This document shows positions 4,010 to 37,339 of a stretch of DNA of 38,426 nt, in pieces. The DNA lies in IMG/VR virus record IMGVR_UViG_3300049810_002155, positions 1-38,426 of that record; one strand, given 5' to 3'. The position numbers and the translations under genes were made by a program. This stretch comes from a virus. The notes beneath the pieces were generated by a model. That model was not told where the DNA came from and did not search any database. It saw nothing but the letters and a program-made list of their open reading frames with translations. Within the stretch, counting starts at the first letter, position 1, and every line of letters starts with the position of its first letter.

Positions 4010-4702
4010 TTAGTTATCCATAATTTCTAGCAAGGGTTGTATTTTCGGAGAGTAGCTATCAAGTACTCTTGCGCTGTATCCTAGTTTGTTTATTTCTGTT
4101 ATTAGCCACGTGGAATTATATATAGTAAGTAAAAAATTAATCTCCTCAGGAATATTTTCATTCAGATCAAGTATAATATCATTATTGACAAAGTATAACC
4201 CAGTATCGATATTATTGAATACATTAAAATCCACTGCCGAACCATAATCTTTAATACGCTTTGAGTGTAATAACTTTATAACTGACAAATTAAGTATGCT
4301 AGAGTACACTACACCCCTACTTACTCTAACCATTTCAGAAATATCAAACACATAATCTTCCCACGAGCTGTGAGTATTTACACTAAAGGAATACACAATA
4401 TCGAATGTGTTGTCTGCAAAGGGAAATTTTAATAATTTTTCCCCCTGGGGATTATAAATCTGATTGTATCGATTATAATGAACTGTGTTGGCCGCAGAGC
4501 AGTGGCTCTGGATATATTTTAGTGCCTCTAGATCAACATCCATACTGGTATAATTTTCTGGTAATATTTCACCAGTTTCTATTCCATCTTCCAGTAAATT
4601 ACCACGATTCCCACCATAGTCTAGTATTGATTTATTTTTAATATCAACGTTGGAATGTTTAAGTGTTTCCAGTCGGTTATCTCTGGGAAATATATGTCCC
4701 AC
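4010..4702 (-). CDS. Class I SAM-dependent methyltransferase
   Basis: Methyltransferase with a Rossmann-like fold. Motif I reads ILDYGGNRGNLLEDG (near residue 27), an acidic residue for the SAM ribose follows in SMDVDLEAL (near 54), and the post-motif segment FPFADNTFDIVYSFS (near 98) matches the usual FADNSFDxV motif of small-molecule and lipid or sugar methyltransferases. No DNA-methylase DPPY or NPPY motif is seen, so a nucleobase target is not indicated. At 230 residues it is normal length. It starts 2 bases after queE ends, in the same operon as folE and queE. A role in tailoring the modified base, a sugar or a cap is possible but unproven. Confidence 0.82.
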   Translation of the reverse strand: MGHIFPRDNRLETLKHSNVDIKNKSILDYGGNRGNLLEDGIETGEILPENYTSMDVDLEALKYIQSHCSAANTVHYNRYNQIYNPQGEKLLKFPFADNTFDIVYSFSVNTHSSWEDYVFDISEMVRVSRGVVYSSILNLSVIKLLHSKRIKDYGSAVDFNVFNNIDTGLYFVNNDIILDLNENIPEEINFLLTIYNSTWLITEINKLGYSARVLDSYSPKIQPLLEIMDN

Positions 4703-4704
4703 TA

Positions 4705-5592
4705 TTATTTTCCTATTGCATTACCGTAAATGTGAACGTGTGCCCTAGTAGTGTAGTTATACCCACGTTGTATGGCTTCGTCAGCAATCGACGCTTCGGT
4801 TTCAGTGAGACCTTCGTATGTACCACCTATGCCCATGATCCATACTGGGAAATCACATCCTGCATTACGAAATAATTTAGTGTTGTGCTCAACTTCACGC
4901 CAACTTGCCTCTGTGCCATTAACCACATACTTTAGTTGACCGCGTTTGGACACCTCTGCATACTTGCCAATCACTTCTGGCTGTATGGCTTTCTTGGGTT
5001 GCTCACCGGCAGTATTCCATAACTTAGGACTGATGCTCCACATCCACTCCCCGCCCCAGTAATGCTGAAAATCTTCTATATACTTCGCTAGCTCTGGGGT
5101 AATAGGCTTGGTGCCATTGGTTTCCACTGTGACGTTTTTAGGCATGTTTCCTCTGCGATAAAATTCACGCAACACACTAATCATGCCAGGTTGTGTGTTT
5201 TTAAGCATGGGTTCCCCACCTGTAAACACCATGTGAGTATGTTGCTTGCTTACAGGATGACAGAACTGGCCGTGTGGTAACAATGCTGTGAGTTCATCCA
5301 CTGCTTCTGTTACTGTACGGTCTGTCATCAAATGCCTGTAGCGTTTTGACCAGGTGTATGAACTATCACAGCCTTTGTCAAACACTGGCAGTTGCATCAC
5401 ATCAGTAATGTCGGCCAGGTCGAGCTTTTCATACGGTAGTTCATAGGTGTCAGGGTCTGTGGGATCGGCCTGCCCAAATCCGTCGCACTGAAGGTTACAC
5501 AGAAAAAAACGCATCCACAAACTAGGTATGCCCGTATACTGACCCTCACCCTGAGCTGAATAAAATGTTTCCGAATACTTAAGATTGGTCAT
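4705..5592 (-). CDS. queE: 7-carboxy-7-deazaguanine synthase QueE (radical SAM)
   Basis: Converts 6-carboxy-tetrahydropterin to 7-carboxy-7-deazaguanine, step three of the preQ0 pathway. The family opening is clear: SETFYSAQGEGQYTGIPSLW at residues 7-26. The radical-SAM cysteines appear as C32-x3-C36, but the third, in GCDSSYTW, is at residue 75, giving C-x3-C-x38-C instead of the compact C-x3-C-x2-C. The inserted segment is rich in Pro and Asp. The SAM-binding TGGEP follows at 124-128. I chose the ATG at 5592 because the QueE core begins there; upstream codons overlap the previous gene and show no family match. Neighbouring folE, a QueD-fold gene and a dpdA-like gene support use in DNA modification rather than tRNA queuosine. 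Confidence 0.92.
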   Translation of the reverse strand: MTNLKYSETFYSAQGEGQYTGIPSLWMRFFLCNLQCDGFGQADPTDPDTYELPYEKLDLADITDVMQLPVFDKGCDSSYTWSKRYRHLMTDRTVTEAVDELTALLPHGQFCHPVSKQHTHMVFTGGEPMLKNTQPGMISVLREFYRRGNMPKNVTVETNGTKPITPELAKYIEDFQHYWGGEWMWSISPKLWNTAGEQPKKAIQPEVIGKYAEVSKRGQLKYVVNGTEASWREVEHNTKLFRNAGCDFPVWIMGIGGTYEGLTETEASIADEAIQRGYNYTTRAHVHIYGNAIGK

Positions 5593-6154
5593 TCTGTCCA
5601 ACCCTGTCCTCGAAGTTCGACTCCAGATATTCATATATCAGTTGCATATCATCCACAAAGTCGCCACTGTAAGCATTTACAAAGCTATCAAAAACAATGT
5701 TGTGAAGATCACTTGAGTCCATGACATTACTAGAATTATACAAATAATCCTCACAAATTTCTTTGATAATTACGTATAACCCGTCAGTAAATAGCGTGTC
5801 CAGATCACCGTCATTTTGATGTAAAAATTCACCCATGGCGTGCTTGTGATGTGAATAGTTTAAAATTCCTAAAAACACCATTTCTGAAATCTGTGATACA
5901 ACTACATCTGCGTCAGGCAGATAAGCTTTGTGAATATCCTCTAGCACAAGAATGCTGTCGTCTCTGGGCCAACGTGCATTATCCACATAGACTTCCATTG
6001 CCTCAAACACTTCGTCATATGTAATAGGATATCGTGCTGTGACTCTATCGAAATTTTTTGTTTCGATAACTTCATCTATCACATCTTTCAGAGGAACCAG
6101 ACTAGGAATAAAGCATAGGGTATTCCTGGGACCACGGGGTTCAATACGTTGCAT
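5579..6154 (-). CDS. Hypothetical acidic protein, 191 aa
   Basis: No family recognised. It is strongly acidic, rich in Asp and Tyr, predicted mainly helical, with no signal or membrane segment. A clear ribosome site (AGAGG) stands just upstream of the ATG, 3 bases after the folE stop. Its 3' end overlaps queE by 14 bases, so it is embedded between two deazaguanine pathway genes and is presumably co-expressed with them. Whether it takes part in that pathway cannot be told from sequence. Confidence 0.75.
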   Translation of the reverse strand: MQRIEPRGPRNTLCFIPSLVPLKDVIDEVIETKNFDRVTARYPITYDEVFEAMEVYVDNARWPRDDSILVLEDIHKAYLPDADVVVSQISEMVFLGILNYSHHKHAMGEFLHQNDGDLDTLFTDGLYVIIKEICEDYLYNSSNVMDSSDLHNIVFDSFVNAYSGDFVDDMQLIYEYLESNFEDRVGQNDQS

Positions 6155-6157
6155 TTT

Positions 6158-6832
6158 TTACCTCTTGTTTACAATGTTCATGAATTCGGAACGAGCCTGA
6201 TGGTCCTCCTTGAAGCAACCACCTAACTTACTTGTTACTGTGCTAGATCCTACATCCTCCACACCTCTGCTCTTTACGCAATAGTGTTGAGCATCTACAA
6301 CCACAGCTATATTATCTGTTTCCAGAATATATTGCAAAGCATAGTAAACTTGTTCAGTAAGACGTTCCTGGATCTGTGGACGTTTAGCAAAGTACTCAAC
6401 AACTCTGTTTAGTTTGCTCAGGCCCAGTACCTTCTCATTGGGAATGTAACCAACTGTAGCCACACCATCAATTACAACAAAGTGATGTTCGCAGTTGGAC
6501 TGAACGTTGATGTTGCGCTCTACGACCATCTCATCATAGTTCATTTTGTTTTGTACTGCTGTGCACTTGGGGAATGCTTCATAATCCAAGCCCCAGAAGA
6601 TCTCATTCACATACATCTTAGCCACACGCTTGGGTGTGTCCTGTAGACTGTCATCACTGAGATCCAGTCCCATGACATTCATGATATTTGTGAAGTGTTC
6701 CTCGATAAGATCAATTTTATCTGTGCGAGTGAACCCATTGTCTGCTACTGGTGTTTCAACGCCCATCTTTACTAGGTGTTCATGAACTTTGCGACCCAGA
6801 TCTGGGTCAGTTTTGGTCTTATTATAAGCCAT
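6158..6832 (-). CDS. folE: GTP cyclohydrolase I FolE
   Basis: Hydrolyses GTP to 7,8-dihydroneopterin triphosphate, the first step toward both folate and 7-deazaguanines. Family signatures are intact: DTPKRVAKMY near residue 65, zinc ligands in NCEHHF (C114, H117) and HYCVKSRG (C185), and the core GLSKLNRVVEYFAKRPQIQE at 137-156. The length of 224 residues is typical of the bacterial enzyme. It has one of the strongest ribosome sites in the window (AAGGAG before the ATG). An upstream sigma70-like promoter at 7107-7135 and a late-type motif at 6897-6905 could both feed it. With queE, a QueD-fold gene and dpdA in the same region, the likely product use is a modified DNA base. Confidence 0.96.
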   Translation of the reverse strand: MAYNKTKTDPDLGRKVHEHLVKMGVETPVADNGFTRTDKIDLIEEHFTNIMNVMGLDLSDDSLQDTPKRVAKMYVNEIFWGLDYEAFPKCTAVQNKMNYDEMVVERNINVQSNCEHHFVVIDGVATVGYIPNEKVLGLSKLNRVVEYFAKRPQIQERLTEQVYYALQYILETDNIAVVVDAQHYCVKSRGVEDVGSSTVTSKLGGCFKEDHQARSEFMNIVNKR

Positions 6833-6896
6833 TTGTATCTCCTTCCTTACGCGGATTTATAGTTTGAATTGTATTTGTTACCTTTGTGTAACATTA

Positions 6897-6905
6897 TTAT
6901 TTATC
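6897..6905 (-). promoter_or_regulatory. Late-type promoter motif upstream of folE
   Basis: GATAAATAA on the minus strand, one base from the GATAAATA[C/G] motif found before virion genes here. It lies in the 93-base gap between folE and the 74-residue ORF. The same gap holds a small GTTAC/GTAAC hairpin. Function is uncertain because folE looks like an early or middle gene. Confidence 0.4.
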
Positions 6906-6925
6906 TGAGTCTATGTTTAAAATTA

Positions 6926-7150
6926 CTAAATTATAATTCTGGATACCCAGTTTGATGCAGTATCTTCTGCAAAGTGAATGCTATGTCCTTTTAAAGTTCT
7001 GACTTCCACTAAATTTCCTTCTTCCCAAAGTTCGCATAGTAAATCCTGATTTGAATCTTTATAAATGAGTGCTCTGCGACTTCCATTAGCTTCAAAGTGC
7101 CCGTTTATAATAGCATGACCAGACTGACTTGTCAAATGTTTGTTATCCAT
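6926..7150 (-). CDS. Hypothetical protein, 74 aa
   Basis: Small beta-rich protein of unknown family. I place the start at 7150, where a TAATG junction overlaps the stop of the phosphoribosyltransferase gene; an upstream in-frame ATG at 7177 would lie deep in that gene. There is no membrane segment. An excellent sigma70-like promoter sits inside its 5' part, so the region has a double use: coding this peptide and driving folE. Confidence 0.62.
   Translation of the reverse strand: MDNKHLTSQSGHAIINGHFEANGSRRALIYKDSNQDLLCELWEEGNLVEVRTLKGHSIHFAEDTASNWVSRIII
7107..7135 (-). promoter_or_regulatory. Internal sigma70-like promoter driving folE-queE
   Basis: Minus strand: -35 TTGACA (7130-7135), 17-base spacer, -10 TATTAT (7107-7112) with an extended -10 TGC in front. 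It lies inside the coding sequence of the 74-residue ORF, about 270 bases upstream of folE. Near-consensus boxes at ideal spacing make chance less likely, though a coding-constrained coincidence cannot be excluded. Confidence 0.6.
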
Positions 7151-7617
7151 TATTGCTCCCAGGGAAATACAATCCACTCTGGATCCAGGTCTTTGTTGAT
7201 CTTTTCCGCACTGTAATCCAGATCCTTAAAAATACTAGAGGCATTGTCCATGAGACACGCATATTTGACTTGCTTCTCTGCCTCCAAACTGTATTCTCGA
7301 ATCTTATTCTGTATCCAGATAAGTGTTTCGCCACTATCGTTGATGTCGTCCACAAATAGTGTTTTAAAGTTTGGTTGTGATATCTTCTTTAGCAATGTAA
7401 GGCTCAGCACAGGATGCTTTACTGCATCATCTCTGAAACTTACCTTAGCCATTTCACAGGGTATTCCTGTTATGTTTGACATCCAAACTGTGGGTATTGC
7501 ACCGCCTCTGACTACTCCCACAATAAGATCAGGTTCAAAGCTATCATTTTTAAATGCTGTTATTACTTTTCCGACCTGATGGTCTATGGTAGTCCAAGTT
7601 ACATATCGTTTGTTCAT
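7150..7617 (-). CDS. Phosphoribosyltransferase (type I PRTase)
   Basis: Nucleobase phosphoribosyltransferase fold. The PRPP-binding motif LFVDDINDSGET is at residues 89-100, and an earlier VGVVRGGAIP loop near 33 matches the pyrophosphate loop of the xanthine/hypoxanthine-guanine group. At 155 residues it is a normal compact enzyme. The usual reaction joins a purine base to PRPP to make a nucleotide; whether the substrate here is guanine, xanthine or a deazapurine cannot be read from sequence. Its start overlaps the galE stop, and its own stop overlaps the next start. Base salvage during infection is the simplest role. Confidence 0.86.
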   Translation of the reverse strand: MNKRYVTWTTIDHQVGKVITAFKNDSFEPDLIVGVVRGGAIPTVWMSNITGIPCEMAKVSFRDDAVKHPVLSLTLLKKISQPNFKTLFVDDINDSGETLIWIQNKIREYSLEAEKQVKYACLMDNASSIFKDLDYSAEKINKDLDPEWIVFPWEQ

Positions 7618-8600
7618 TTCTTTTTACTAGTCTCCCATGCCCAGGCGTCAGCAATAATTGTGTCTAGATTTCTGGTAGGCTGCCAGTCTAGAATATGTTG
7701 TGCCTTGATGTTGTTAGCAAATGTAATGTTAACATCTCCTGGCCGCTTGTTACCTACTTTATAATCCACAGTTTTTCCCGTGACTGCCCCAAAGCGTTCG
7801 ATAACTTCTAGTATGGTATGGGTATGCCCCGCACCTATATTGAATACATCTGTGTTACCACCTGCGTTCAGATACTCCAGAGCCTTGACATGACCCTCTA
7901 CAATATCCATGACGTGAGTGTAGTCTCTGGAAGTTGTGCCGTCTTTTGTGGCATGGGTATCACCAAACACAGTAAAGGTTTCTGATTCGTTTACTGCTTT
8001 ACAAAGCACAGGAATCAAGTGAGTGGGTAATTCATCCTTAGCTGTTACATAGCCTATACCATTTTTAGTGTCTGATCCTGCGGCATTAAAGTATCTGAGG
8101 CTCACGCTCTGAAGATTATGGGCTGTGGCGTAATCCCATAAAATATCTTCAACAATGCTTTTGGATTTAGCATAAGGACTTACTGGCGTCTTAATAGTAT
8201 GATCTTCTTCAGCACCCACCTGAGCAGACTTCATGTTATCGCCATATACACTACTGCTAGATGAAAACACAAACTTCTTGACGCCTGCTTCCACAGCATG
8301 GTTAAGCAGACTCACAGTGTTTGCTACATTGTTCCAGTAGTATGTACCTGGATCAGTAACACTACCCTCTACTGTGTGCGACGCTGCTAGATGTATAATA
8401 GCATCCGGCTGTAGTAATTTAATTAGTCCCCTGACCTGATGATTATCTAATTCAAAGGGATATTGCGTAACACCAGGAAGTTCTCGCTTCACTCTATCAA
8501 TGTTTACTACATTGTATCCCTCTTCAACAAGTCTTAGGCATGTACTAGCACCAATAAATCCACTGCCGCCTGTGACTAGGATTGTTTTTTCTTCATCCAT
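7614..8600 (-). CDS. galE: NAD-dependent epimerase, UDP-glucose 4-epimerase type
   Basis: Short-chain dehydrogenase/epimerase that interconverts UDP-glucose and UDP-galactose (or related UDP-sugars). Seen: nucleotide-binding ILVTGGSGFIGAS at residues 7-19, catalytic Ser run SSSSSVYGD near 118, the YxxxK pair in SPYAKSK near 145, and the family strand SLRYFNAAG near 170. The length of 328 residues is normal. I chose the ATG at 8600 because AAGGTG sits six bases upstream; a TTG six codons earlier is less likely. It follows a glycosyltransferase gene with a short overlap, so it probably supplies that enzyme's donor sugar. Confidence 0.92.
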   Translation of the reverse strand: MDEEKTILVTGGSGFIGASTCLRLVEEGYNVVNIDRVKRELPGVTQYPFELDNHQVRGLIKLLQPDAIIHLAASHTVEGSVTDPGTYYWNNVANTVSLLNHAVEAGVKKFVFSSSSSVYGDNMKSAQVGAEEDHTIKTPVSPYAKSKSIVEDILWDYATAHNLQSVSLRYFNAAGSDTKNGIGYVTAKDELPTHLIPVLCKAVNESETFTVFGDTHATKDGTTSRDYTHVMDIVEGHVKALEYLNAGGNTDVFNIGAGHTHTILEVIERFGAVTGKTVDYKVGNKRPGDVNITFANNIKAQHILDWQPTRNLDTIIADAWAWETSKKK

Positions 8601-9582
8601 TTTTTTCACCTTGACCAAACCAGGTCTCTAAAGGATCACAGTTTAGTTCAACCTGATCCTGATACTGCTGTTGTAAGGCATCACACACCATGATGACACT
8701 TTCTTCGTGTGTATCGAACAAGTACTTTTCATCATACAGTTCTGGATACACTAACCTATTGGGTAATACTGGTGTACATCCCAACACTGCGGCTTCAGCA
8801 ATGCCAAATCCGAAATTCTCTTGCAGAGCATAACTAACCACACACTTACTCTGAGCTAACAATTGATAATACTGATCTTTACTTAGATCCAAGTCCTGAG
8901 TTTTGACAAATTCTATGTCATCTCTGTCCAAGACTTCTTTCACTCTTAGTTCTAACTTGTCAAACAAATGAGGTTGCTTTTCATCGCAAATCCTGCCGTT
9001 GAATATAACTATGTCAGATTTATTTGAGGTATCATACTTGCTAATATTTTCATAGTCAACTGGCAATCCTGACACCACAAACTTACTGGGGTCTACCATA
9101 CGCTTTTTAATAATATCATCTCTGATAAAGTTACTTGCGCAGTAAATGGTTTCGGAAATATCAAAAATAATGTCTTCAAAATTCTTAGCCCAGCGTTCCA
9201 TGTCCCTCACAAAGTCAGTATCTGTGAAACTACCCGCATGTATAACACCAGTTATTTTAGCATCTTTTTTATGAAAATAGTTCATGTAAGCGATGCTTTC
9301 AATACCTGGAAACCAAATATCCGAAAAGAAAAATCTATCGTCGTCCCTGATCAAATCCTGCTCATATAGGTCTGCAATCATCATTAGCTGATTAGCTTTA
9401 AATTTACTTGTAAAAGCAGCGTTTAGAAAGCATCCCTCTGGGAGCGGAGCCGCTTCCAATTTGGGCATGATTTTAATAAATTCCATATTGTTAGTCACAA
9501 AGTGATTAGTGATATCACGGTCCATGTGGACCGTGTACCTACCATCAATATGCTCCAGGGGCACGTAGATTATTCTACTCAT
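8593..9582 (-). CDS. Glycosyltransferase, GT4-like (GT-B fold)
   Basis: The C-terminal half carries the features of retaining GT-B enzymes: VIFNGRICDEKQPHL near residue 195 (donor-side glycine loop) and the E-x7-E motif in ENFGFGIAEAAVLGCTPV near 260. The N-terminal acceptor half is divergent. At 329 residues it is complete. It is coupled to galE downstream and overlaps the Hc1-like gene upstream by an ATGA junction. Acceptors could be modified phage DNA, a virion protein or host surface glycan; the sequence does not decide. Position inside the deazaguanine gene cluster makes DNA worth testing. Confidence 0.8.
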   Translation of the reverse strand: MSRIIYVPLEHIDGRYTVHMDRDITNHFVTNNMEFIKIMPKLEAAPLPEGCFLNAAFTSKFKANQLMMIADLYEQDLIRDDDRFFFSDIWFPGIESIAYMNYFHKKDAKITGVIHAGSFTDTDFVRDMERWAKNFEDIIFDISETIYCASNFIRDDIIKKRMVDPSKFVVSGLPVDYENISKYDTSNKSDIVIFNGRICDEKQPHLFDKLELRVKEVLDRDDIEFVKTQDLDLSKDQYYQLLAQSKCVVSYALQENFGFGIAEAAVLGCTPVLPNRLVYPELYDEKYLFDTHEESVIMVCDALQQQYQDQVELNCDPLETWFGQGEKNG

Positions 9583-9758
9583 AGCGAGTTCTTTTTATCC
9601 TGAATCTCTGCTCTGCGTGTTTTGGATAGTTTGCCCATCTCGCCCAGTGCTTTGCGGGCCCTTGCCGCCGCCGCCTTGACACCCTTGGTTTCAAATGCTT
9701 CATTTTCCACCAGATATGCTTCGTACATTGCTTTAATTTGTAAATGAGTCTCAGTCAT
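9579..9758 (-). CDS. Histone H1-like (Hc1-type) small DNA-binding protein
   Basis: 59 residues with an acidic-aromatic first half and a Lys/Arg/Ala-rich second half (KGVKAAAARARKALGEMGKL). The pattern, a helix ending FETKG followed by the Ala-Arg stretch and an RAEIQDKKNS tail, recalls the Hc1 histone H1-like family known from Chlamydiae and Bacteroidetes and seen in marine phages. The ATG at 9758 is preceded by AAAGGAG. It ends with an ATGA overlap into the glycosyltransferase gene. DNA binding or compaction is inferred from family; I could not search to confirm. Confidence 0.62.
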   Translation of the reverse strand: MTETHLQIKAMYEAYLVENEAFETKGVKAAAARARKALGEMGKLSKTRRAEIQDKKNSL

Positions 9759-9759
9759 G

Positions 9760-10134
9760 TTATTCTCCTTTTTGATACTCGATTTCGCAACCGTTTTCAT
9801 TGTCTTCGGCTACGCTTATTTTCAGCCAACGATTAGGAAATTTATTCCGTATCGTATTTGCTAAATCATCTGCGATCATCTCGCAAGATTTGTAGTCCAG
9901 TTGTAGTTCTGTATTACCATACAGTCGCTCCAACCATCTTTTGAATTGTATAAATTCAATATCTCTGTCATTGTGAAATACTTCAATCCACACTTTGAAG
10001 TGAAATATGTGTCTGTGTGGGAAACCCAGAAAGGACACATCATCCCAACTACCTGTTGCTAACTTGGGATCAGTGTCCGCACCTGGATACTTGTGTATGC
10101 CTTCTTTGGTAAATGTTACCCAAATACTACGCAT
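9760..10134 (-). CDS. queD: QueD-fold (6-carboxy-tetrahydropterin synthase-like) protein
   Basis: Probably supplies 6-carboxy-tetrahydropterin to QueE. The 124 residues follow the T-fold layout of QueD/PTPS: a first zinc His at H14 (EGIHKYPG), the H-x-H zinc pair at H40/H42 (GFPHRHIFHF), a strand-helix IEFIQFKRWLERLY near 60, an SCEMIADDLANTI helix near 84 matching the PTSENLA helix of QueD, and a C-terminal acidic strand SVAEDNENGCEIEY. The catalytic Cys four residues before the H-x-H pair is absent (Leu), and the LDHR Asp-His pair is not evident. It could therefore be a divergent synthase or a QueD paralogue with altered activity. Context (folE, queE, dpdA) supports the pathway assignment. 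Confidence 0.62.
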   Translation of the reverse strand: MRSIWVTFTKEGIHKYPGADTDPKLATGSWDDVSFLGFPHRHIFHFKVWIEVFHNDRDIEFIQFKRWLERLYGNTELQLDYKSCEMIADDLANTIRNKFPNRWLKISVAEDNENGCEIEYQKGE

Positions 10135-10297
10135 TTAAATTACGCTCGAGAATTTCTATTTCTGCATCTTTTCTGGCCTGCCAATCTTCTGATGTTCTGG
10201 CTACGCCTTTGGCGTTGGATTTCTCAGTGAATACGGAATTCTTAAGGCGCTGTAATGCCCCCATTCTGCGGTTGTATGAATTTTTTTTGTGTATCAT
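10127..10297 (-). CDS. Small basic hypothetical protein, 56 aa
   Basis: Found by reading the gap upstream of the QueD-like gene: an ATG at 10297 opens a 56-codon frame ending TAG at 10127-10129. The peptide is basic at the N-terminus (MIHKKNSYNRRMGALQRLKN) and ends in a charged helix. Its ATG overlaps the stop of the upstream membrane peptide (ATGA) and its end overlaps the queD start by 8 bases, the junction style used throughout this operon. No family recognised. Confidence 0.6.
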   Translation of the reverse strand: MIHKKNSYNRRMGALQRLKNSVFTEKSNAKGVARTSEDWQARKDAEIEILERNLNA

Positions 10298-10434
10298 GTG
10301 TTGTCCCCGTCATTATATTTAACATCTGTTTTATCAAAACGCTTAGTTCCTGAAGTTTTAAATGCATTTGTAATCGCACCCACACCAAAACCTATCATTA
10401 AAAGTATGATTATTACTATTCCAAATACTTCCAT
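10294..10434 (-). CDS. Single-span membrane peptide, 46 aa
   Basis: Begins MEVFGIVIIILLMIGFGVGA, one clear N-terminal transmembrane helix, followed by a hydrophilic charged tail of about 26 residues. The frame runs from the ATG at 10432-10434 to TGA at 10294-10296 and is joined to both neighbours by TAATG and ATGA overlaps. Too short to assign a family. Likely an inner-membrane phage peptide. Confidence 0.62.
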   Translation of the reverse strand: MEVFGIVIIILLMIGFGVGAITNAFKTSGTKRFDKTDVKYNDGDNT

Positions 10435-10610
10435 TATAGTTCCTCAGCGATGCCTACCAATTCTGCTATTAGTAATCCACCTGATAAAACTTGTATGGAC
10501 AAATCATACGAGCATAAAAAGGCAAACACACAAGCGCCCATGCGCAACACACTTTTCACTAAGCTCAGATAAAAATGTCTTTTACCTGGGTCCTTCGTCG
10601 CGACTGTCAT
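10434..10610 (-). CDS. Small hydrophobic protein, 58 aa
   Basis: I place the start at 10610 (MTVATKDPGKRHFYL) because GAGGGTG lies immediately upstream; in-frame ATGs at 10622 and 10658 are further inside the preceding gene. A basic stretch is followed by two hydrophobic segments (residues 24-34 and 39-53), compatible with a short membrane hairpin. It overlaps the DUF805-like gene upstream by about 29 bases and meets the next gene at a TAATG. No known family. Confidence 0.55.
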   Translation of the reverse strand: MTVATKDPGKRHFYLSLVKSVLRMGACVFAFLCSYDLSIQVLSGGLLIAELVGIAEEL

Positions 10611-10998
10611 TGTCACCCTCATCAATAAGTATTGCTGGATCTTCCGTAGGCTTAACACAACAATAAATAAATGTTAAACATCCTAAAAATGTAATAATAA
10701 AGCTTATGGCAATTACTGCAATCCTGTAACCTTCTGAGCTTAGGCCGCCATCTCTTAGTCTGTTGTTAGTCCAAACTATGGTAATTAAAAATGTATATAG
10801 CAACATTAATACACATCCCACTGCTATAGCTGTTAAAATACTTTCCATATGAATGGCCGCATCAAATTTCATGTGAAAAATGCCGCCCACCAACCATAAC
10901 AGTGTTAGTGCGATATTATTAAAAATATAGTCCCCACGGGTCATGGGAGCATTCCAAGCCGGCAAAAAATGCCAGTTAATGCTATTCATCATTTTCAT
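10582..10998 (-). CDS. DUF805-like inner-membrane protein
   Basis: About 138 residues with three to four hydrophobic segments (about 26-42, 53-76 and 91-113). Two features recall the DUF805 family: an early PMTRGDYIF stretch, like the SRxEYW segment, and NNRLRDGGLSSEGYR, like the RRLHDxGxSGWW motif. Function of that family is unknown. In-frame ATGs at 10998, 10992 and 10989 all fit; the one at 10992 has the best spacing from a GGA, but I give the longest form. It overlaps the small acidic ORF upstream. Confidence 0.62.
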   Translation of the reverse strand: MKMMNSINWHFLPAWNAPMTRGDYIFNNIALTLLWLVGGIFHMKFDAAIHMESILTAIAVGCVLMLLYTFLITIVWTNNRLRDGGLSSEGYRIAVIAISFIITFLGCLTFIYCCVKPTEDPAILIDEGDNDSRDEGPR

Positions 10999-11089
10999 AT
11001 TCCTGTATATCCTTGATGACTTCCAGCAACTCTGTCAGAGCATCCTGATCTTCATCCGCATCAAGCTCTATTGTGATTTTTACTTTCAT
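10982..11089 (-). CDS. Small acidic peptide, 35 aa (putative)
   Basis: Frame MKVKITIELDADEDQDALTE followed by a short acidic helix, ending TAG at 10982. It starts only 5 bases downstream of a perfect -10 box, so the mRNA would begin at or inside its ATG; it would have to be read leaderless or from another transcript. The beta-strand plus acidic-helix composition looks like real protein, not random sequence. Low certainty. Confidence 0.45.
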   Translation of the reverse strand: MKVKITIELDADEDQDALTELLEVIKDIQEYENDE

Positions 11090-11094
11090 AATGT

Positions 11095-11123
11095 ATTATA
11101 CACTTTTGTTTACTATATGTCAA
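11095..11123 (-). promoter_or_regulatory. Consensus sigma70 promoter
   Basis: Minus strand: -35 TTGACA (11118-11123), 17-base spacer, -10 TATAAT (11095-11100). Both boxes are perfect matches. It lies in the 30-base gap after dpdA, with the -35 overlapping the dpdA stop codon, and would drive the small membrane-protein and queD/galE operon. Confidence 0.78.
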
Positions 11124-12673
11124 CCTTCAAAGTCTCCGGTCATGATGTCATGATTCATGAGTTCTTCTCTAGTCTGTTCTGACTCTTCGAATGTATCAGG
11201 TTCATCAAAGAACATACTACGAGCGCCAGCATGATTGTCCATGTTGCCTTGTCCAAAGCTCACATCATCTAACAAGGTGTAACGATACTGTTCGATCAGT
11301 TCATATGGATTAGGGCAAGCTGGGTCCAACACATCACGGACAAAACTGTCGATCATTTCAATGTGATAGGGGACATAGGGACTAAACTCATTGGTATTTT
11401 TAGTCTTTTTGTCATTCACATAATCAGTGTAGTGGATATTACCTCTGAATCGCTCAATGTCAGCCAACCTGTTAGCCTCTTGTACAGCGGTCAAATGATT
11501 ATATACACTGTGAGCCATGTAGTAAAGATAACTGCTAGTATCCCAGGATGTGCTGTCAGGGCCCTTGGCTTTGCCGTTCTTGTCCAGATCGCCTTCTGCC
11601 ATATAACAGATATCACCAGCAGTGAGTCTTTCCATGATGGGACTGTGAGCAAATGGCATGGGCATTGTGCTACCCTTGAGTTCCTGGCTGTCAATAGCAC
11701 CTTCCATGAAGTAGCCAAATCGCTTGGGACTAAAGTAGTTATAAGAGTATGTGCTACCATATGCTGTGTTAACAAAGGGCGAAGCCGCATCAAAGCTCAC
11801 ACAAATCTCTGGACTATCATGCTTTCTGAGCATTCGTTGTATGCTAGTTAAGTAGCAGGCCCAGTTTAATTTGCCTGTGCCCAGGAAGTGTATCCAACCC
11901 TTGCCTTCAAGTAATCCATCCTTGCGTAAATCCAGGATGCGCTTGAGTGCCAGATACATGGTGCTCTTGTTGTTACCAGCGAAAGCGAAGCCTTCCAAGG
12001 CTAGATCAGGATTGCCATACTTCTTACCTACCCACTTAGGATCTGAATACATCTTAACACTTTCATACCAATGGTCTGACGATGCTTCGTCGTTACCTGA
12101 TAAGATGTTCATAAACTTACATGCACCAGGAGTACGATGCTTCATGTAGTAATCCAGATTGAGTAGGGTAATATCCACAGCATCCTGAAAGTCAGTGAGT
12201 CCAGTACGCTTGTTCATGGGGGGGATACATGCCACAGAAGGCACATCCAATGTCATTGCCCAGTCACACTGATCTTCTTCCCAGGCTAATATGGTCTCAC
12301 ATAGTTTCTCTCGAGCAGGATCGCCTGGATTTTTTGCTGTGTCCCATTCCATTTTGATAACACCAGTAGCTACCTGGAAACCACCCGAGTCCCCCACTAA
12401 TACAGTCTTTGACCTGTCACGGTCATCGATCATGGGCTCTTTGCCCTTCTTGTTAAGGTCTAACTGGGCGTGTCCTGCCGAGTATAATCCATAGGGATAA
12501 TGATAGTACGAGTCCTCTGACTTTAGAAAGTCTAAACCCTCGTTGCCTAGTTCAAAGCCCTCTGGAACTCTGCCATCCTGCTCTGCCAGAGTATACAGTT
12601 GCTTTACATAGAAACTGGATATTGCTGGCAGAAAGATTGCATAGTCTGATTGTGTCTTACCTAAATCCTTCAT
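11120..12673 (-). CDS. dpdA: DNA 7-deazaguanine transglycosylase, DpdA/TGT-like
   Basis: tRNA-guanine transglycosylase-fold enzyme, best explained as a DpdA that swaps guanine in DNA for a 7-deazaguanine. TGT landmarks appear in order: VLVGDSGGFQ at 91-100 (the catalytic-pocket Asp), MTLDVPS near 140-146, EGFAFAG near 227-233 (the GG-LAVG loop), LGTGK near 264-268, and SFDAASPF at 293-300, whose Asp295 sits where TGT has its nucleophile. The C-terminal CxCxxC...H zinc site of tRNA TGTs is not present. At 517 residues it is longer than bacterial TGT (about 375). Its ATG follows the sliding-clamp stop directly, so it is co-expressed with the replication machinery. The nearby folE, queD-like and queE genes would make its substrate. 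Confidence 0.85.
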   Translation of the reverse strand: MKDLGKTQSDYAIFLPAISSFYVKQLYTLAEQDGRVPEGFELGNEGLDFLKSEDSYYHYPYGLYSAGHAQLDLNKKGKEPMIDDRDRSKTVLVGDSGGFQVATGVIKMEWDTAKNPGDPAREKLCETILAWEEDQCDWAMTLDVPSVACIPPMNKRTGLTDFQDAVDITLLNLDYYMKHRTPGACKFMNILSGNDEASSDHWYESVKMYSDPKWVGKKYGNPDLALEGFAFAGNNKSTMYLALKRILDLRKDGLLEGKGWIHFLGTGKLNWACYLTSIQRMLRKHDSPEICVSFDAASPFVNTAYGSTYSYNYFSPKRFGYFMEGAIDSQELKGSTMPMPFAHSPIMERLTAGDICYMAEGDLDKNGKAKGPDSTSWDTSSYLYYMAHSVYNHLTAVQEANRLADIERFRGNIHYTDYVNDKKTKNTNEFSPYVPYHIEMIDSFVRDVLDPACPNPYELIEQYRYTLLDDVSFGQGNMDNHAGARSMFFDEPDTFEESEQTREELMNHDIMTGDFEG

Positions 12674-13423
12674 TTACTTACTCGCTGGTAGTAGGTATGT
12701 GTATTCCCCAACGCCTGAGTCTACCACAATTTGTAGCAAGCCCTTCTGGTTAAAGCTCATGGTTACATTGGCATTTTCTGCCAAACGGCAAATCTTTAGT
12801 ACAATGCCAAGTGGCCACTGAAAGTCATGTGTCATATCACCAGTTACTGCCTCTGCTACTCTTACCCTTGTGCGATCACTTCCTGAATCACCAATCAGGA
12901 AGTACAAGTTACCATCTTCTGTTTTGGGCGTAAATGTATCTTCCAAGTCCAGGGCACTTGAGAAGAAGTTTAAGTCCTTGAGCATCTTAGCACTGGGATT
13001 GATTTCTACATCATAACTAGCACCCTTAAAGTTAATAGCCTTGAGTTGCTGGTTTACAATTTCTGCGGCCATGAACCTATAGTTTGCTGTGGCATCTGGA
13101 CAATCAAACTTTACCTCGGCCGGCACATCTTCGTCGTTGCGTTTCTGTGTTGTAATCTCCACTGTGGCAGTGTCTTCTGAGTATCCGGGATACTCTAGGA
13201 AGCGAGCCAGTGTGGCCATACGGCTCAGGCCCACTGTGTTGCCTACAAAGTCAGGCACGGGGTTCTTTAGTTTGCCCTTCAAGATCACAGTCTTATCTGC
13301 ATCCACAGTTTCAATCTCTGTGGACTCCATTGTGCCACTTACTTTGACCATCTCATAGATACCCAAGGCATGAGTATGTCTAAGGACATCTTTGAGTGTG
13401 TCAGTAATATAGTTGTTAGCCAT
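12674..13423 (-). CDS. 45: DNA polymerase sliding clamp (T4 gp45-like)
   Basis: Trimeric processivity clamp for the phage polymerase; in T4 it also activates late transcription. The 249-residue length is close to gp45 (228). Family-like features: an N-terminal TLKDVLRHTHALGIYEMVKV helix-strand, the internal SRMATLARFLEYP segment near 67, and the C-terminal GLLQIVVDSGVGEYTYLLPA strand pair. Expressed from a sigma70-like promoter at 13456-13485 with a GGAG ribosome site. dpdA follows without a gap. Clamp-loader genes (gp44/gp62) are not in this window. Confidence 0.88.
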   Translation of the reverse strand: MANNYITDTLKDVLRHTHALGIYEMVKVSGTMESTEIETVDADKTVILKGKLKNPVPDFVGNTVGLSRMATLARFLEYPGYSEDTATVEITTQKRNDEDVPAEVKFDCPDATANYRFMAAEIVNQQLKAINFKGASYDVEINPSAKMLKDLNFFSSALDLEDTFTPKTEDGNLYFLIGDSGSDRTRVRVAEAVTGDMTHDFQWPLGIVLKICRLAENANVTMSFNQKGLLQIVVDSGVGEYTYLLPASK

Positions 13424-14205: not shown

Positions 14206-14491
14206 AAAATTTAATTTCCTGTTGAAGCATAGTATGCTTTTTTCTGGCTAACCTAAGATACTTTATCAAACCATATAAACTCAGGGAGAACCAAAATACT
14301 TCTATTACCATGCTTGCCAAATTAAAATTATATATCAAACTAATAGTAATCAATATTGCTACAATCATGTTGTTAAAACTGTACCAAAATCCCTTGGGAT
14401 CTATGCCGTCAAATTGCAGTAGTCCATATGTACTGATAAGCAATGACACGCCCATGAGCCCTATGATATCAGAAAAGCCTATTGCTATCAT
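14195..14491 (-). CDS. CBU_0592-type small membrane protein
   Basis: 98 residues with three membrane helices (about 7-24, 39-56 and 59-76) and a charged tail. The pattern LLQFDGIDPKGFWYSFNN, then helix, SLIYNFNLASMVIEVFW and SLYGLIKYLR matches the CBU_0592-like membrane domain found in many bacteria, whose function is unknown. It overlaps the polymerase gene by 4 bases, and the next gene starts inside it. Probably co-transcribed with polymerase. Confidence 0.74.
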   Translation of the reverse strand: MIAIGFSDIIGLMGVSLLISTYGLLQFDGIDPKGFWYSFNNMIVAILITISLIYNFNLASMVIEVFWFSLSLYGLIKYLRLARKKHTMLQQEIKFYED

Positions 14492-17193
14492 CCGAAATCA
14501 AAAAACTCTTGTAGAGCCTCTGCCTCTGTGGCTCGGTCTAAATTAAAATTCATAGCACCCAACACGTTTTGTATCTTCTTTTCTAACACGCTCTCTAGCA
14601 TACCCTCGTCATCAAAAGGCAGTTCCCTGAACCAGTCAGGTAAGTTTTGCTCGTCTGTGGGATATGCGATGTTTGTATAGCCCATGGCATTGTTTTTAAG
14701 TTTGCACACTATGACCTTCATGCCATCAGTAATGCTTTGACTATAATTGTCTGACATTGCACTCTTATACTCGTTCCAGTTAATGCTAGCTCTGACGTGT
14801 CCAGGGATCATGTTGTTCTCTTTGACTACACCCTGATATCTGGCAATCTTCATGACATCCTTGCCGCGCATCTTTGCTAATTTCTCTCCATAGGTTGTGA
14901 GATTGTTCACACGCTTGGGCATGCCTTTACGCCAGGGCTCCATGTTTTTAAAAACTTCACGAAACTCTTTGATCTCAGCAATAATTTGCTCTTCTGTGTG
15001 TCCACTCAGAGCATGATCCAACAATCCTTCTAAAAAGTCCTGCACAAACTCTGGAGTATCTGAACGCTTGATATCCATGCCCATGATCTTGAGCTTGCCG
15101 CCTTCGGGCTGATATCCTTCTATGTCCAAACACTTAATGGCATAGCGTTTCTTTGTAATAAACACCCCTGATCTGCCCACTACCTCACGGCCCGCCTTCA
15201 TGACCTGACCTGCTTGTAAGGGCACGTTGAACTCTTTCTTTAGGAAGCCTGGGAACGTACTGCTCACGTCATCTGAAATTTTGTCATAGAGTGCGATAGC
15301 ACTATCCATATCAAGTTCCTGACCTGCCTCAAGTGCTGGTTGTGCGCTGAAGTATACACTATCTGTATCGCCATACACTACTGTAGCACCTTCATGATCG
15401 TACTCGCCAGTAAGCATGCGATTTGTCTCTGCACCCATGTGACGTGTGATCATACGTCCAGTAAGTGTGGTAGATTGTCCTATGCGTTTATCATAAAATC
15501 TACATCCAGGGTTTAGAATTGCACCATAAAGTGAGTTTAGGTTAATCTTCTTGACTAACTGTCGCTTATCCCAAAACGCAATTTGCTCTGGTGTTGTCGC
15601 CTCTTTCTTTTTGGCCTGTAGTTCCTTGCGTTCAGCATACCAACGTTCAAGCAATCCAGGCACAATACCCAGGAAGTCTGTTTTAAATATTGTGCCATTC
15701 GCGCTTATGTTCCAGGGTTGGTTACTGTTAAACACCAGATGATAGATATCACCGCCAGTTACCTCCATGACTTCGCCAGTTTCCATGCGAAGTTGTAGTG
15801 GTACCTGACTGTCCTTCTTCATTATAAGCTCATATTCATTGCTTGCAAACTTATTGTTCCAGGCATCACTAAAGCTCATGGCTTTGCGAATCTTTCCGTT
15901 ACCGTTGGCCCAAGTGCCAGACATCTTCTGTTCTATTTCAGTTTCAGTGAGATCTAGACTTACCTGTGCTACAATAGTTTCTGGTGCCATGTTCAGAGCC
16001 CTAAACACACTGGGATACAGAGAGTTTATGTCCATGCTGCCTATCCATTCATGATAACCCTTCTTGGGATGTGCTACATAGGCTCCTGCGGCCCTGTCCC
16101 TCTCTGCTCTTTCTCTGGGTCTGTCTGGTACGACATAACCTCGTCTGTGAGCTTCGTTAATAATTGCTTGTTCAGTTGTGGCGACGGCGCCCGAGGTTGT
16201 CGCCAGAAGCACAGTATTATCATGAGCAATAGTATTTGCCAAATCAATAAACTGTAATTTAAGATCCAGCTTATGCAATAGCATAACGTCCTGTATGTTG
16301 TATTCCAAAAATTTTTCATAGTCGTATTTGTATAGTTTATCCAAACTACCCTCGTAAGCTACCTTCTTTTCTCCGACCTCCATCTCACCAATATAATCCA
16401 GCCTATAGCTATGACGCTCCTCATAATTATATTTTCGGTATAAATCCAGGTAGTCTAAGTGAACTCTGCCACATATGGTATAGCCGTGCTGTTCCTTGCC
16501 AAATCGCTCATATACTTTTTCCCTGGGCAATTGATCCCACAGGCATATTCTGCGAGTCTCTTGTTTTCCCATGACTTTCTTGATACGGTTAATGGTATAG
16601 GGAATGTCATATCCGTCTGAGTTCCAACCACTGAGAATATCAGCATCCCCAATGAGGACCAAAAACATGTCAAGCATTTCCTTTTCTGTTTTGCACAGTA
16701 TCACTTCTGGTAGTTTTTCTGCGATATTTGTCGCCTGTTCCCAGTTGAGTGTTTTTGGCGGAACGCTTAGGCATATCATGGCATTCTGCCACTGAAGATA
16801 TACTCCAATAGCAGTAATAGACGAAAAGGCCTCCTCAGGGGATGCATAACCTAGCACAGGGTCAAAGTCAACCTCTATGTCAAAAAATGCAGTGTTTAGT
16901 TTAGGGGACTCTGCATTGCTGTAATGCTTACTAAGTGTTTTAAAAACGGGCTTGATATCACTTTCATATGTCTTATTATTGTTCATGATAGCTTGGTTTT
17001 TGCGGAACTCCTTGAGATTTCTGCATTTGACCTGACTAACTGCTTCACCATATATGCTGTGATATCTGCCCTTGGGATCCTCTACATAAAAGTCATACTC
17101 TGGTTTGTGGTCAACTAATATTCGATCACCGTCCACGCGCTCAACAACTCGCACCAGATCAGATTTTTTATCGTAAATCGCATCTATATACAT
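14488..17193 (-). CDS. 43: DNA polymerase, family B (T4 gp43-like)
   Basis: Replicative polymerase with proofreading. Exonuclease motifs: FDIEVDFD (D105, E107), NSDGYDIPY near 205, and YNIQDVMLL near 304. Polymerase motifs: DINSLYPS near 388 (motif A), KKINLNSLYGA near 550 (motif B), YGDTDSVYF near 611 (motif C), then the thumb KKRYAIKCLD near 680. All catalytic acids are present, and 901 residues matches gp43 (898). No intein or split is seen. A sigma70-like promoter has its -10 box only 6 bases before the ATG and there is no ribosome site, so the transcript may be leaderless. Confidence 0.98.
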   Translation of the reverse strand: MYIDAIYDKKSDLVRVVERVDGDRILVDHKPEYDFYVEDPKGRYHSIYGEAVSQVKCRNLKEFRKNQAIMNNNKTYESDIKPVFKTLSKHYSNAESPKLNTAFFDIEVDFDPVLGYASPEEAFSSITAIGVYLQWQNAMICLSVPPKTLNWEQATNIAEKLPEVILCKTEKEMLDMFLVLIGDADILSGWNSDGYDIPYTINRIKKVMGKQETRRICLWDQLPREKVYERFGKEQHGYTICGRVHLDYLDLYRKYNYEERHSYRLDYIGEMEVGEKKVAYEGSLDKLYKYDYEKFLEYNIQDVMLLHKLDLKLQFIDLANTIAHDNTVLLATTSGAVATTEQAIINEAHRRGYVVPDRPRERAERDRAAGAYVAHPKKGYHEWIGSMDINSLYPSVFRALNMAPETIVAQVSLDLTETEIEQKMSGTWANGNGKIRKAMSFSDAWNNKFASNEYELIMKKDSQVPLQLRMETGEVMEVTGGDIYHLVFNSNQPWNISANGTIFKTDFLGIVPGLLERWYAERKELQAKKKEATTPEQIAFWDKRQLVKKINLNSLYGAILNPGCRFYDKRIGQSTTLTGRMITRHMGAETNRMLTGEYDHEGATVVYGDTDSVYFSAQPALEAGQELDMDSAIALYDKISDDVSSTFPGFLKKEFNVPLQAGQVMKAGREVVGRSGVFITKKRYAIKCLDIEGYQPEGGKLKIMGMDIKRSDTPEFVQDFLEGLLDHALSGHTEEQIIAEIKEFREVFKNMEPWRKGMPKRVNNLTTYGEKLAKMRGKDVMKIARYQGVVKENNMIPGHVRASINWNEYKSAMSDNYSQSITDGMKVIVCKLKNNAMGYTNIAYPTDEQNLPDWFRELPFDDEGMLESVLEKKIQNVLGAMNFNLDRATEAEALQEFFDFG

Positions 17194-18615: not shown

Positions 18616-19587
18616 TTAGTATTGTTGTCCTGCAGTCAAGAATCTGGCCATGGTCAAATTACCAACATCAGTGGCATTGCCGTCTGATGCAAATGGGAAC
18701 TTATCGATTGTGTTTACAACGGATACAGCATTACCACCTGATGTATAACCACTTGCAGTTGATGATTGACCTGCTGGCTTGGTTCTGCTCTCAGTCAAAT
18801 CACCCACATCTGTGGCATTGGCATCTGATGCAAATGGGAACTTATCAATTGTGTTGACATTGTTACCAGGCATGTAGCCACCAGATGTATAACCACTTAC
18901 ATCTGATGATTGCCCTGCTCCTTCACGTCTACCCTGAAACAAATCACCCACATCAGTAGCATTACTATCTGATACAAACGGAAACTTTTGGATTGTGTTT
19001 ACAACGGTTCCAGTATTACCACCTGATGTATAACCATGTGTTGTGCTCGATTGACCTGCTAGTGTACGGTTACCTGCAAGCAAATCCCCCACATCAGTGG
19101 CATTGCCATCTGACGCAAATGGAAACTTGTCTATAGTATCTTTATAGCTCGGGGAACCAGTTGGAACATTACCGCCTGATGTATAACCGCTGGAACTACT
19201 GGATTGGCCTGCCGGAGCCCATCTAGCAAGTGTTACATCACCCACATCTGTGGCATTGGCATCTGATGCAAATGGTAATTTCTCAATCACATTGGTGACA
19301 TCACCATCCCAACCTGCAGAAGTATAACCACTTGTGGTTGATGATTGCCCTGTTACGCCTTGTTTTGCCACCGTCAAATCTCCCACATCAGTGGCATCTG
19401 TATCACTTGTAAAGCTAAACTTGTCTATGACATCCCTGACATTTGAATCATCAGTTGACCCGCCTGTTGTGTAACCATAGTTACTACCTTGAAAAACATA
19501 AGGGGCTGGTGTTGGAGAGGGCGCACCACCTGTGCCCATATTTGCTCCACCTGTGAGTGTTGCTCCGCCTGTGATTGTTATTGCCAT
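18616..19587 (-). CDS. Six-repeat beta-propeller (kelch-like) virion protein, paralogue 1
   Basis: 323 residues of six repeats, each holding a KFPFASDxNATDVGDL strand followed by AGQSSxxxGYTSGG. The last repeat stops at TAGQQY, lacking the GYTSGG strand, while the N-terminus supplies an isolated SNYGYTTGG, so the ring is probably closed by strand exchange between the two ends. The N-terminal leader is Gly/Thr-rich (MAITITGGATLTGGAN), as in two paralogues at 36253 and 37340. Such Gly/Ser/Asn-rich propellers fit surface-exposed fiber or decoration proteins that bind glycans. A good ribosome site (GGGAG) precedes the ATG, and a late-like GTAAATAA lies at 19611-19618. Function inferred. Confidence 0.82.
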   Translation of the reverse strand: MAITITGGATLTGGANMGTGGAPSPTPAPYVFQGSNYGYTTGGSTDDSNVRDVIDKFSFTSDTDATDVGDLTVAKQGVTGQSSTTSGYTSAGWDGDVTNVIEKLPFASDANATDVGDVTLARWAPAGQSSSSSGYTSGGNVPTGSPSYKDTIDKFPFASDGNATDVGDLLAGNRTLAGQSSTTHGYTSGGNTGTVVNTIQKFPFVSDSNATDVGDLFQGRREGAGQSSDVSGYTSGGYMPGNNVNTIDKFPFASDANATDVGDLTESRTKPAGQSSTASGYTSGGNAVSVVNTIDKFPFASDGNATDVGNLTMARFLTAGQQY

Positions 19588-36187: not shown

Positions 36188-36196
36188 GTATTTATC
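36188..36196 (-). promoter_or_regulatory. T4-type late promoter
   Basis: GATAAATAC on the minus strand, 22 bases before the 55-residue gene, directly after the terminator of propeller paralogue 2. The promoter-terminator layout is copied almost exactly at 37275-37321. Confidence 0.75.
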
Positions 36197-36212
36197 AGAT
36201 TTTTATCACAAA

Positions 36213-36234
36213 AAAGCCCTCTAGTGAGGGCTTT
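36213..36234 (-). terminator. Hairpin terminator after propeller paralogue 2
   Basis: 9-bp stem AAAGCCCTC/GAGGGCTTT with loop TAGT, then a T run on the minus strand. It lies 18 bases after the stop codon. Confidence 0.88.
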
Positions 36235-36252
36235 GATGGATTTGTATAAAAA

Positions 36253-37274: not shown

Positions 37275-37283
37275 GTATTTATC
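37275..37283 (-). promoter_or_regulatory. T4-type late promoter for propeller paralogue 2
   Basis: GATAAATAC on the minus strand, 27 bases upstream of the start, with an AGGAG ribosome site between. Confidence 0.75.
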
Positions 37284-37299
37284 AGATTTTTATCACAAA

Positions 37300-37321
37300 A
37301 AAGTCCTCTAGTGAGGACTTT
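37300..37321 (-). terminator. Hairpin terminator after propeller paralogue 3
   Basis: 9-bp stem AAAGTCCTC/GAGGACTTT with loop TAGT and a T run on the minus strand. Compared with the stem at 36213-36234 one base pair differs on both arms (C-G to T-A), preserving pairing. Confidence 0.9.
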
Positions 37322-37339
37322 GACAGATTTGTATAAAAA

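Follow-up and report, generated by a model that had tools for sequence, protein, structure and literature searches.

The window analysed here, a linear viral contig of 38,426 bases that is probably a fragment of a larger genome (IMG/VR record IMGVR_UViG_3300049810_002155), carries beside its replication genes a set of genes whose content and homology give good support to a 7-deazaguanine DNA-modification module next to the replisome, as a first-pass annotation had proposed. That annotation recognized folE, queE, a QueD-fold gene and a gene for a DpdA/TGT-like protein, and the places it gave them on one strand, the minus strand, are confirmed. Its start for queE, position 5592, is a better choice than the start of the full open reading frame at 4705-5634, and dpdA does directly follow the sliding-clamp gene. 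The genes between dpdA and folE were overlooked; they include those for a glycosyltransferase (GT), a GalE-type epimerase and a phosphoribosyltransferase (PRT). The module lies entirely on the minus strand and is read from the family B DNA polymerase through the sliding clamp and DpdA to QueE, as follows.

14488..17193, minus strand: family B DNA polymerase (Pfam DNA_pol_B, 1e-36), upstream of the module and in the same direction
12674..13423, minus strand: sliding clamp, by homology to a Phosso gene with that annotation; abuts dpdA
11120..12673, minus strand: putative DpdA/TGT-like DNA guanine transglycosylase, from PA5oct homology, motifs and a DpdA2 profile match
10582..10998, minus strand: small membrane protein, DUF805-like; no conservation in relatives
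9760..10134, minus strand: QueD-fold (T-fold) zinc-site paralog of 124 aa, from its predicted fold and invariant residues
9579..9800, minus strand: small lysine-rich reading frame (Hc1-like; Pfam Hc1, 5.9e-10), overlapping its neighbours on both sides
8593..9582, minus strand: GT4-type (GT-B) glycosyltransferase, from fold matches, family motifs and Pfam matches in relatives
7614..8618, minus strand: GalE-type UDP-sugar 4-epimerase (NCBIfam galE), overlapping the GT gene
7150..7617, minus strand: purine-type PRT (Pfam Pribosyltran, 1e-10)
6158..6832, minus strand: FolE, GTP cyclohydrolase I (Pfam, NCBIfam)
5579..6154, minus strand: 191-aa protein with no assigned function, kept upstream of queE in close relatives (15 loci)
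4705..5634, minus strand, probable start 5592: QueE-like 7-carboxy-7-deazaguanine synthase (PHROG)
4010..4702, minus strand: SAM methyltransferase-like protein (Pfam Methyltransf_11, 3.5e-5); a homolog was not found in related loci, and its membership of the module is uncertain

A megablast search of the module against 50,697 phage records returned no match. The order clamp, DpdA, QueD paralog, GT, sugar genes where present, PRT, FolE and QueE is repeated in dozens of viral contigs, and because the same order recurs in this way the module is not a chance assembly. It is common to many uncultured viruses and to some cultured giant phages; a scan of a viral contig collection located the paralog in at least 599 places and yielded 80 viral contigs, 76 of them with distinct paralog sequences. 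Neighbours were counted only in non-redundant contigs with enough flanking sequence. DpdA lies beside the paralog in 62 of 63 such contigs, and the clamp was found in every one of the 58 that extend far enough upstream. The GT is present in 56/60, separated from the paralog by a median of 240 bases, PRT in 35/41, FolE in 40/41 and QueE in 34/40. Among 49 contigs that have the GT followed by 5 kb or more of downstream sequence, 36 carry a GalE-like gene (SDR/GalE cluster) and 43 carry some sugar-nucleotide-type gene, the types counted being UDP-glucose dehydrogenase, cytidylyltransferase-like, Gfo/Idh, alcohol dehydrogenase-like and DegT aminotransferase.

FolE is certain, as judged from its matches to Pfam GTP_cyclohydroI (6e-63) and NCBIfam FolE (324 bits, cut-off 202). 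The QueE-like protein matches the PHROG family of QueE-like radical SAM proteins (5.5e-51) and stays under the NCBIfam QueE cut-offs (best 37 bits, against 240); by its sequence it is a member of a divergent phage subfamily. The cluster cysteines C46 and C50 occur in 46/46 sequences and C89 in 44/46, the GGEP motif is present as TGGEP at residues 138-142, and a long insertion separates the second and third of these cysteines.

The identification of the 11120..12673 product as DpdA/TGT-like stands, and rests on TGT landmarks together with a profile alignment to the DpdA2 of phage nt-1. The protein, a putative DNA guanine transglycosylase, is 48% identical to PA5oct EST35_0316. D95-S-G-G-[FY]-Q100, a motif of the DSGG[FL]Q type with the general-base Asp, is found in all 68 sequences compared, in which D143 is also invariant. 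D295, at the position of the nucleophile, is likewise present in 68/68, within SFD[AC]ASPF, which hhalign pairs with FDCVMPTR of E. coli TGT. The profile of the family aligns with a DpdA2 profile that includes nt-1 YP_008125322 (prob 92, E 6.6e-7), and DpdA2 itself matches E. coli TGT. YP_008125322 has been named DpdA2, and the nt-1 genome contains dPreQ0 (PMC6884629). As a single sequence searched against the viral contigs, DpdA gave no pattern match, its homologs being found later beside the paralog, and its profile found nothing among the PDB sequences.

The fold assigned to the 9760-10134 product was correct; its identity as QueD was not. The AlphaFold model (AF2) has a pLDDT of 92, and in Foldseek searches of the PDB it matched QueD chains best, with E. 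coli QueD at 3.4e-4. VIA-align Z scores reached 11.4 against a PTPS and 10.5 against QueD, followed closely by those of dihydroneopterin aldolases. The T-fold is secure, and because these three kinds of protein score so close together the fold leaves the closest function undecided. Sequence searches of the PDB with the GT and paralog profiles gave only marginal matches. The residues that bind zinc, bind the base and carry out catalysis are well established in QueD and PTPS enzymes. On E. coli QueD, the hhalign register places H14, H40 and H42 of the paralog at the zinc histidines, E110 at the base-binding glutamate and L36 at the catalytic Cys27; the alignment match itself is weak (prob 0.7, single sequence), and the register rests on the fold and on conserved residues. 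H14, L36, H40, H42, S83, C84, E85 and E110 are invariant in 92 sequences. The catalytic Cys of CxxxHGH is therefore missing, with Leu36 at the Cys27 position in 92/92, and the zinc histidines are kept. Nor is there an Asp-His pair in the 124 residues of the paralog, where E. coli QueD has RLDHHYLN and the phage QueDs have FDH.

We searched eleven complete phage genomes that carry the paralog (PA5oct, phiST, Phosso, RHph_I1_18, ACP17, X1, Bakedbeans, BUCT-ZZ01, MA9V-3, Ahp1 and D479). In nine of these a separate PTPS/QueD protein exceeds the family cut-off; the other two are Ahp1, with a marginal match, and D479, with sub-threshold matches only. These separate QueDs mostly keep the Cys and the Asp-His, and the phage QueD family to which they belong has members in 105 phage records, some of them from phages that also encode QueC. 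Since the paralog lacks the catalytic Cys and the Asp-His pair and coexists with a separate QueD, its sequence indicates that it is not QueD but another enzyme belonging to the 7-deazaguanine branch. A role for it as a replacement for QueD was considered and rejected, as most complete relatives carry both and its residues are the same with or without a detected QueD. In the separate QueDs of phiST, ACP17, BUCT-ZZ01, RHph_I1_18, Phosso, X1 and MA9V-3, HGY replaces HGH; these proteins mostly lack the histidine of the first zinc position and retain the Cys and Asp-His, and are in this respect a mirror image of the paralog.

The first-pass annotation reported that queC is not in the window, and this is upheld and extended. 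Neither QueC nor a true QueD was found in the 38,426-base record, and for want of a true QueD "near-complete" was too generous a description of the pathway in the window. Full-length QueC was found in 0/11 of the complete genomes, where the PP-loop matches in D479 and X1 are short and partial, and in none of 33 related contigs, which show partial or weak matches only. From these searches, the absence of QueC from this type of pathway looks real. No QueD was found in the large contigs G011, G014 and G030, and for them supply by the host or an incomplete contig must therefore be assumed. The partial QueC-like matches in the contigs, X1 and D479 were rejected as QueC, being short or weak. Such QueC/PP-loop-like matches lie at G014:52672-52893, G021:47003-47194 and G012:9482-10120 and in contigs L015 and L016, and they could represent a divergent ligase acting on a carboxylate.

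The GT of the window falls below the gathering score of Pfam Glycos_transf_1 (18.1 against 26.4 bits), which is matched by 16 of 21 members of its family, at up to 5.6e-8. Its AF2 model (pLDDT 83) resembles GT-B enzymes, with a Foldseek value of 4e-12 and VIA Z scores of about 20-23. The family motif comprises R197 and K202 (74/74), E263 (73/74) and E/D255 in an E-x7-E arrangement. GalE exceeds its NCBIfam cut-off (315 against 262 bits). In the PRT the PRPP loop, DDxxD[ST]GxT, is conserved, and the family occurs in 11 phage records, mostly of the Cellulophaga phiST type, the Flavobacterium immuto type and BUCT-ZZ01.

Members of the GT family were found in 20 of the 50,697 phage records. Sixteen of these also have the paralog (eleven PA5oct-type phages, two ACP17, X1, Phosso and BUCT-ZZ01), and the other four, PhiXhv-12, -15, -16 and Ep032, have the phage QueD. 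The GTs of these four are distant (23%), with a profile prob of 99.7 for PhiXhv-12; that phage, the sole one of the four checked, carries QueE, and a search of it for the paralog gave no match. Five phage lineages keep GT and paralog no more than about two genes apart; either gene may come first, and the accompanying DpdA is of two types, with DpdA2-like genes in ACP17, X1 and BUCT-ZZ01. In the Xanthomonas phage PhiXhv-12 (L109:7861-11095), where QueD and QueE are present, the distant GT stands beside GlmS-like and N-acetylglucosaminyl-malate deacetylase-like genes, and this set may stand for a form of the modification that carries an amino sugar.

These observations lead us to propose that the module is an operon with which the phage modifies its DNA after replication, by a 7-deazaguanine branch that does not depend on QueC. 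That the viral DNA contains a 7-deazaguanine is, on the sequence comparisons above, very probable. It is rather likely that the paralog acts on 7-carboxy-7-deazaguanine (CDG) or on its product; it probably stands in for QueC, and an action on CDG at the position of QueC best fits the residue pattern. For a sugar on the modified base, which is suggested by the conserved linkage, we consider the chances to be even, and we place the reading as a whole, a QueC-independent 7-deazaguanine modification of DNA that is probably glycosylated, at the same evenly balanced level. The more specific proposition, that the DNA base is a glycosylated QueC-independent 7-deazaguanine made with tailoring by a zinc T-fold protein of the QueD family, a dedicated GT4 and the virus's own supply of UDP-sugar, falls a little short of an even chance.

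Gene content, gene order, folds, motifs and the residue swap in the paralog are observed, and from them we infer the catalytic steps, their order and the sugar on the DNA. FolE would start the pterin, and a QueD encoded elsewhere in the phage genome or by the host would make carboxytetrahydropterin, which QueE would convert to CDG. CDG would then be the substrate of the paralog, which would take the place that QueC has in the preQ0 pathway; most likely it would be a zinc enzyme whose reaction eliminates the carboxylate or modifies it. Close to the clamp and polymerase, DpdA would put the base so formed into replicated DNA in exchange for guanine, and PRT would recycle the guanine set free. GalE would supply the donor sugar, after which the GT4 glycosyltransferase would decorate the inserted base.

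Several points weigh against this proposal. The chemistry is incomplete: CDG after decarboxylation is 7-deazaguanine, which offers no obvious acceptor to an O-glycosyltransferase, and neither CDG, with its carboxylate, nor 7-deazaguanine, with its nucleophilic C7, is the usual acceptor of a GT4 enzyme. The DpdA/TGT-like protein had no match in any hidden Markov model library used, and its alignment with a single TGT sequence is weak (prob 18), with the nucleophile motif still aligned. The window is a fragment, and QueC or QueD may lie outside it. The contigs share kinship, and the neighbour counts given above are measures of conservation rather than independent tests. Finally, the paralog occurs without a detected GT in phiST, RHph_I1_18, Bakedbeans, Ahp1, D479 and MA9V-3, and the sugar step would therefore be an optional addition and not part of the core.

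This last point bears on the alternative that survives best, although we regard it as improbable. Phages with dDG or dCDG have reportedly been described by Cui et al. 2023, who are said to have predicted a CDG decarboxylase, DpdL. Decarboxylation of CDG is perhaps what the paralog does, as one option, which would make it a DpdL candidate. If it were a DpdL-type enzyme, DpdA would insert 7-deazaguanine, the DNA would contain unsubstituted dDG, and the GT would act on a virion protein or a host glycan. Phages such as phiST, with the paralog and no detected GT, agree with this. However, members of the GT family in the phage collection were found only in phages with 7-deazaguanine genes, usually beside the paralog. 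A plain dCDG, in which DpdA inserts the product of QueE directly and the QueD-fold gene is an ordinary QueD, is less probable again. FolE, QueE and DpdA are all present, and QueC is absent from the window, with no full-length copy in the complete relatives, all of which speaks for this base. But a QueD-fold protein without the catalytic Cys, accompanied in most complete relatives by a distinct QueD, implies a further step before or after, and GT, GalE and PRT are left unexplained. The suggestion of the first-pass annotation that the final base may be the 7-carboxy form is weakened for the same reasons: the paralog probably processes CDG further, and GT and sugar genes would not be needed for a plain carboxy base.

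It is decidedly unlikely that the base is of the preQ0 or archaeosine type, made with a QueC from the host or from outside the fragment. The window is a linear fragment and most hosts make preQ0; yet the eleven complete phages with the paralog have no full-length QueC, and the 33 contigs offer partial or weak matches only. We give very little weight to the proposal that the GT acts, as in T4, on a hydroxymethylated pyrimidine produced by a thymidylate-synthase-like enzyme, independently of the deazaguanine genes. PA5oct and Phosso do carry a thymidylate synthase family gene, but ACP17, X1 and BUCT-ZZ01 possess the GT with no such gene in their whole genomes, and the GT is tightly linked to DpdA and the paralog. 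A pterin glycoside pathway unrelated to DNA (FolE, a PTPS-like protein and a GT), comparable to that of the cyanobacterial tetrahydrobiopterin glucosyltransferase, is most improbable. The GT does match a tetrahydrobiopterin glucosyltransferase in structure, but it matches numerous other GT4 enzymes just as well, and in most relatives QueE and DpdA belong to the core of the operon. Scarcely any probability remains, too, for a TGT-like protein that modifies tRNA and not DNA, which its TGT-family landmarks would permit, given that 58 to 62 contigs link it to clamp and polymerase, and given its closest characterised relatives, which are of the DpdA2 type and come from phages with modified DNA.

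The proposed QueC-independent, possibly glycosylated modification may be compared with known systems. Modification of DNA with preQ0 or archaeosine uses FolE, QueD, QueE and QueC with DpdA or DpdA2 (PMC6884629). Our module shares FolE, QueE and a DpdA-type transglycosylase with phages of this kind (9g, CAjan and nt-1; PMC6884629), and the phage QueD family is common to both. It differs from them in that no full-length QueC was found and that the paralog, GT4, GalE and PRT are extra, and its DpdA belongs to a subfamily that the libraries used do not match. The dDG and dCDG phages, as reported, resemble it in having a 7-deazaguanine without a QueC product; to our knowledge no glycosylation step has been reported for them. 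Close to it, too, are Pseudomonas jumbo phages like PA5oct (Arenbergviridae, with PA5oct, Paride, Callisto and others), in which clamp, DpdA, GT, paralog, PRT and QueE form a cluster and FolE and QueD lie elsewhere in the genome. There the order of GT and paralog is reversed, and the window proteins are 48% (DpdA) and 60% (paralog) identical to theirs; we found no description of this module in the literature searched. A further likeness is to QTMAN, the tRNA-queuosine mannosyltransferase, as another GT-B enzyme proposed to act on 7-deazaguanine. The C-terminal motif of the GT may resemble that of QTMAN. We do not claim the GT as a QTMAN, since hmmscan of 21 members of the window-type family gave no match to Pfam QTMAN_N. 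A genome search was silent in the controls too.

A glycosylated 7-deazaguanine in DNA is not described in the literature that we searched, a scope that did not include Cui et al. 2023. If the proposal is correct, a class of sugar-bearing modified guanine would be added to the known chemistry of DNA, a hypermodified purine counterpart of glucosyl-hydroxymethylcytosine. The module also suggests a phage route after QueE without QueC, a role for the unannotated paralog family PHROG 17812, and a reason for PRT to travel with DNA transglycosylases, namely that the guanine they release is recycled. The same genes occur in cultured Pseudomonas and Acidovorax phages, and the prediction can therefore be tested directly.

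Some further features of these loci may be recorded. In most of the 67 loci carrying it, a protein of about 170 aa lies between DpdA and the paralog (e.g. L065:9322-9888); it is present in PA5oct and ACP17 as well, and Pfam and PHROG gave no match to it. We did not find it in the window, where the DUF805-like gene at 10582..10998 occupies its usual position. A scan with a defence-system library gave no meaningful match. Elsewhere in the window, positions 21424-23340 on the minus strand encode a Reprolysin-like metallopeptidase with a thrombospondin type 3 repeat, and 30734-35587, also on the minus strand and near a baseplate-like protein, encodes a protein of 1617 aa that contains 13 stretches of collagen triple helix and is dense in Gly-X-Y repeats. 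Three proteins (18616-19587, 36253-37248 and 37340-38275), with matches to DUF4907 or PHROG 19111, are made up of a roughly 145-base repeat that is shared across 18 kb. Beside two of these repeat-protein genes lie intergenic duplicates of 82 bases (36188-36269 and 37275-37356), which are 94% identical and contain a terminator-like inverted repeat.

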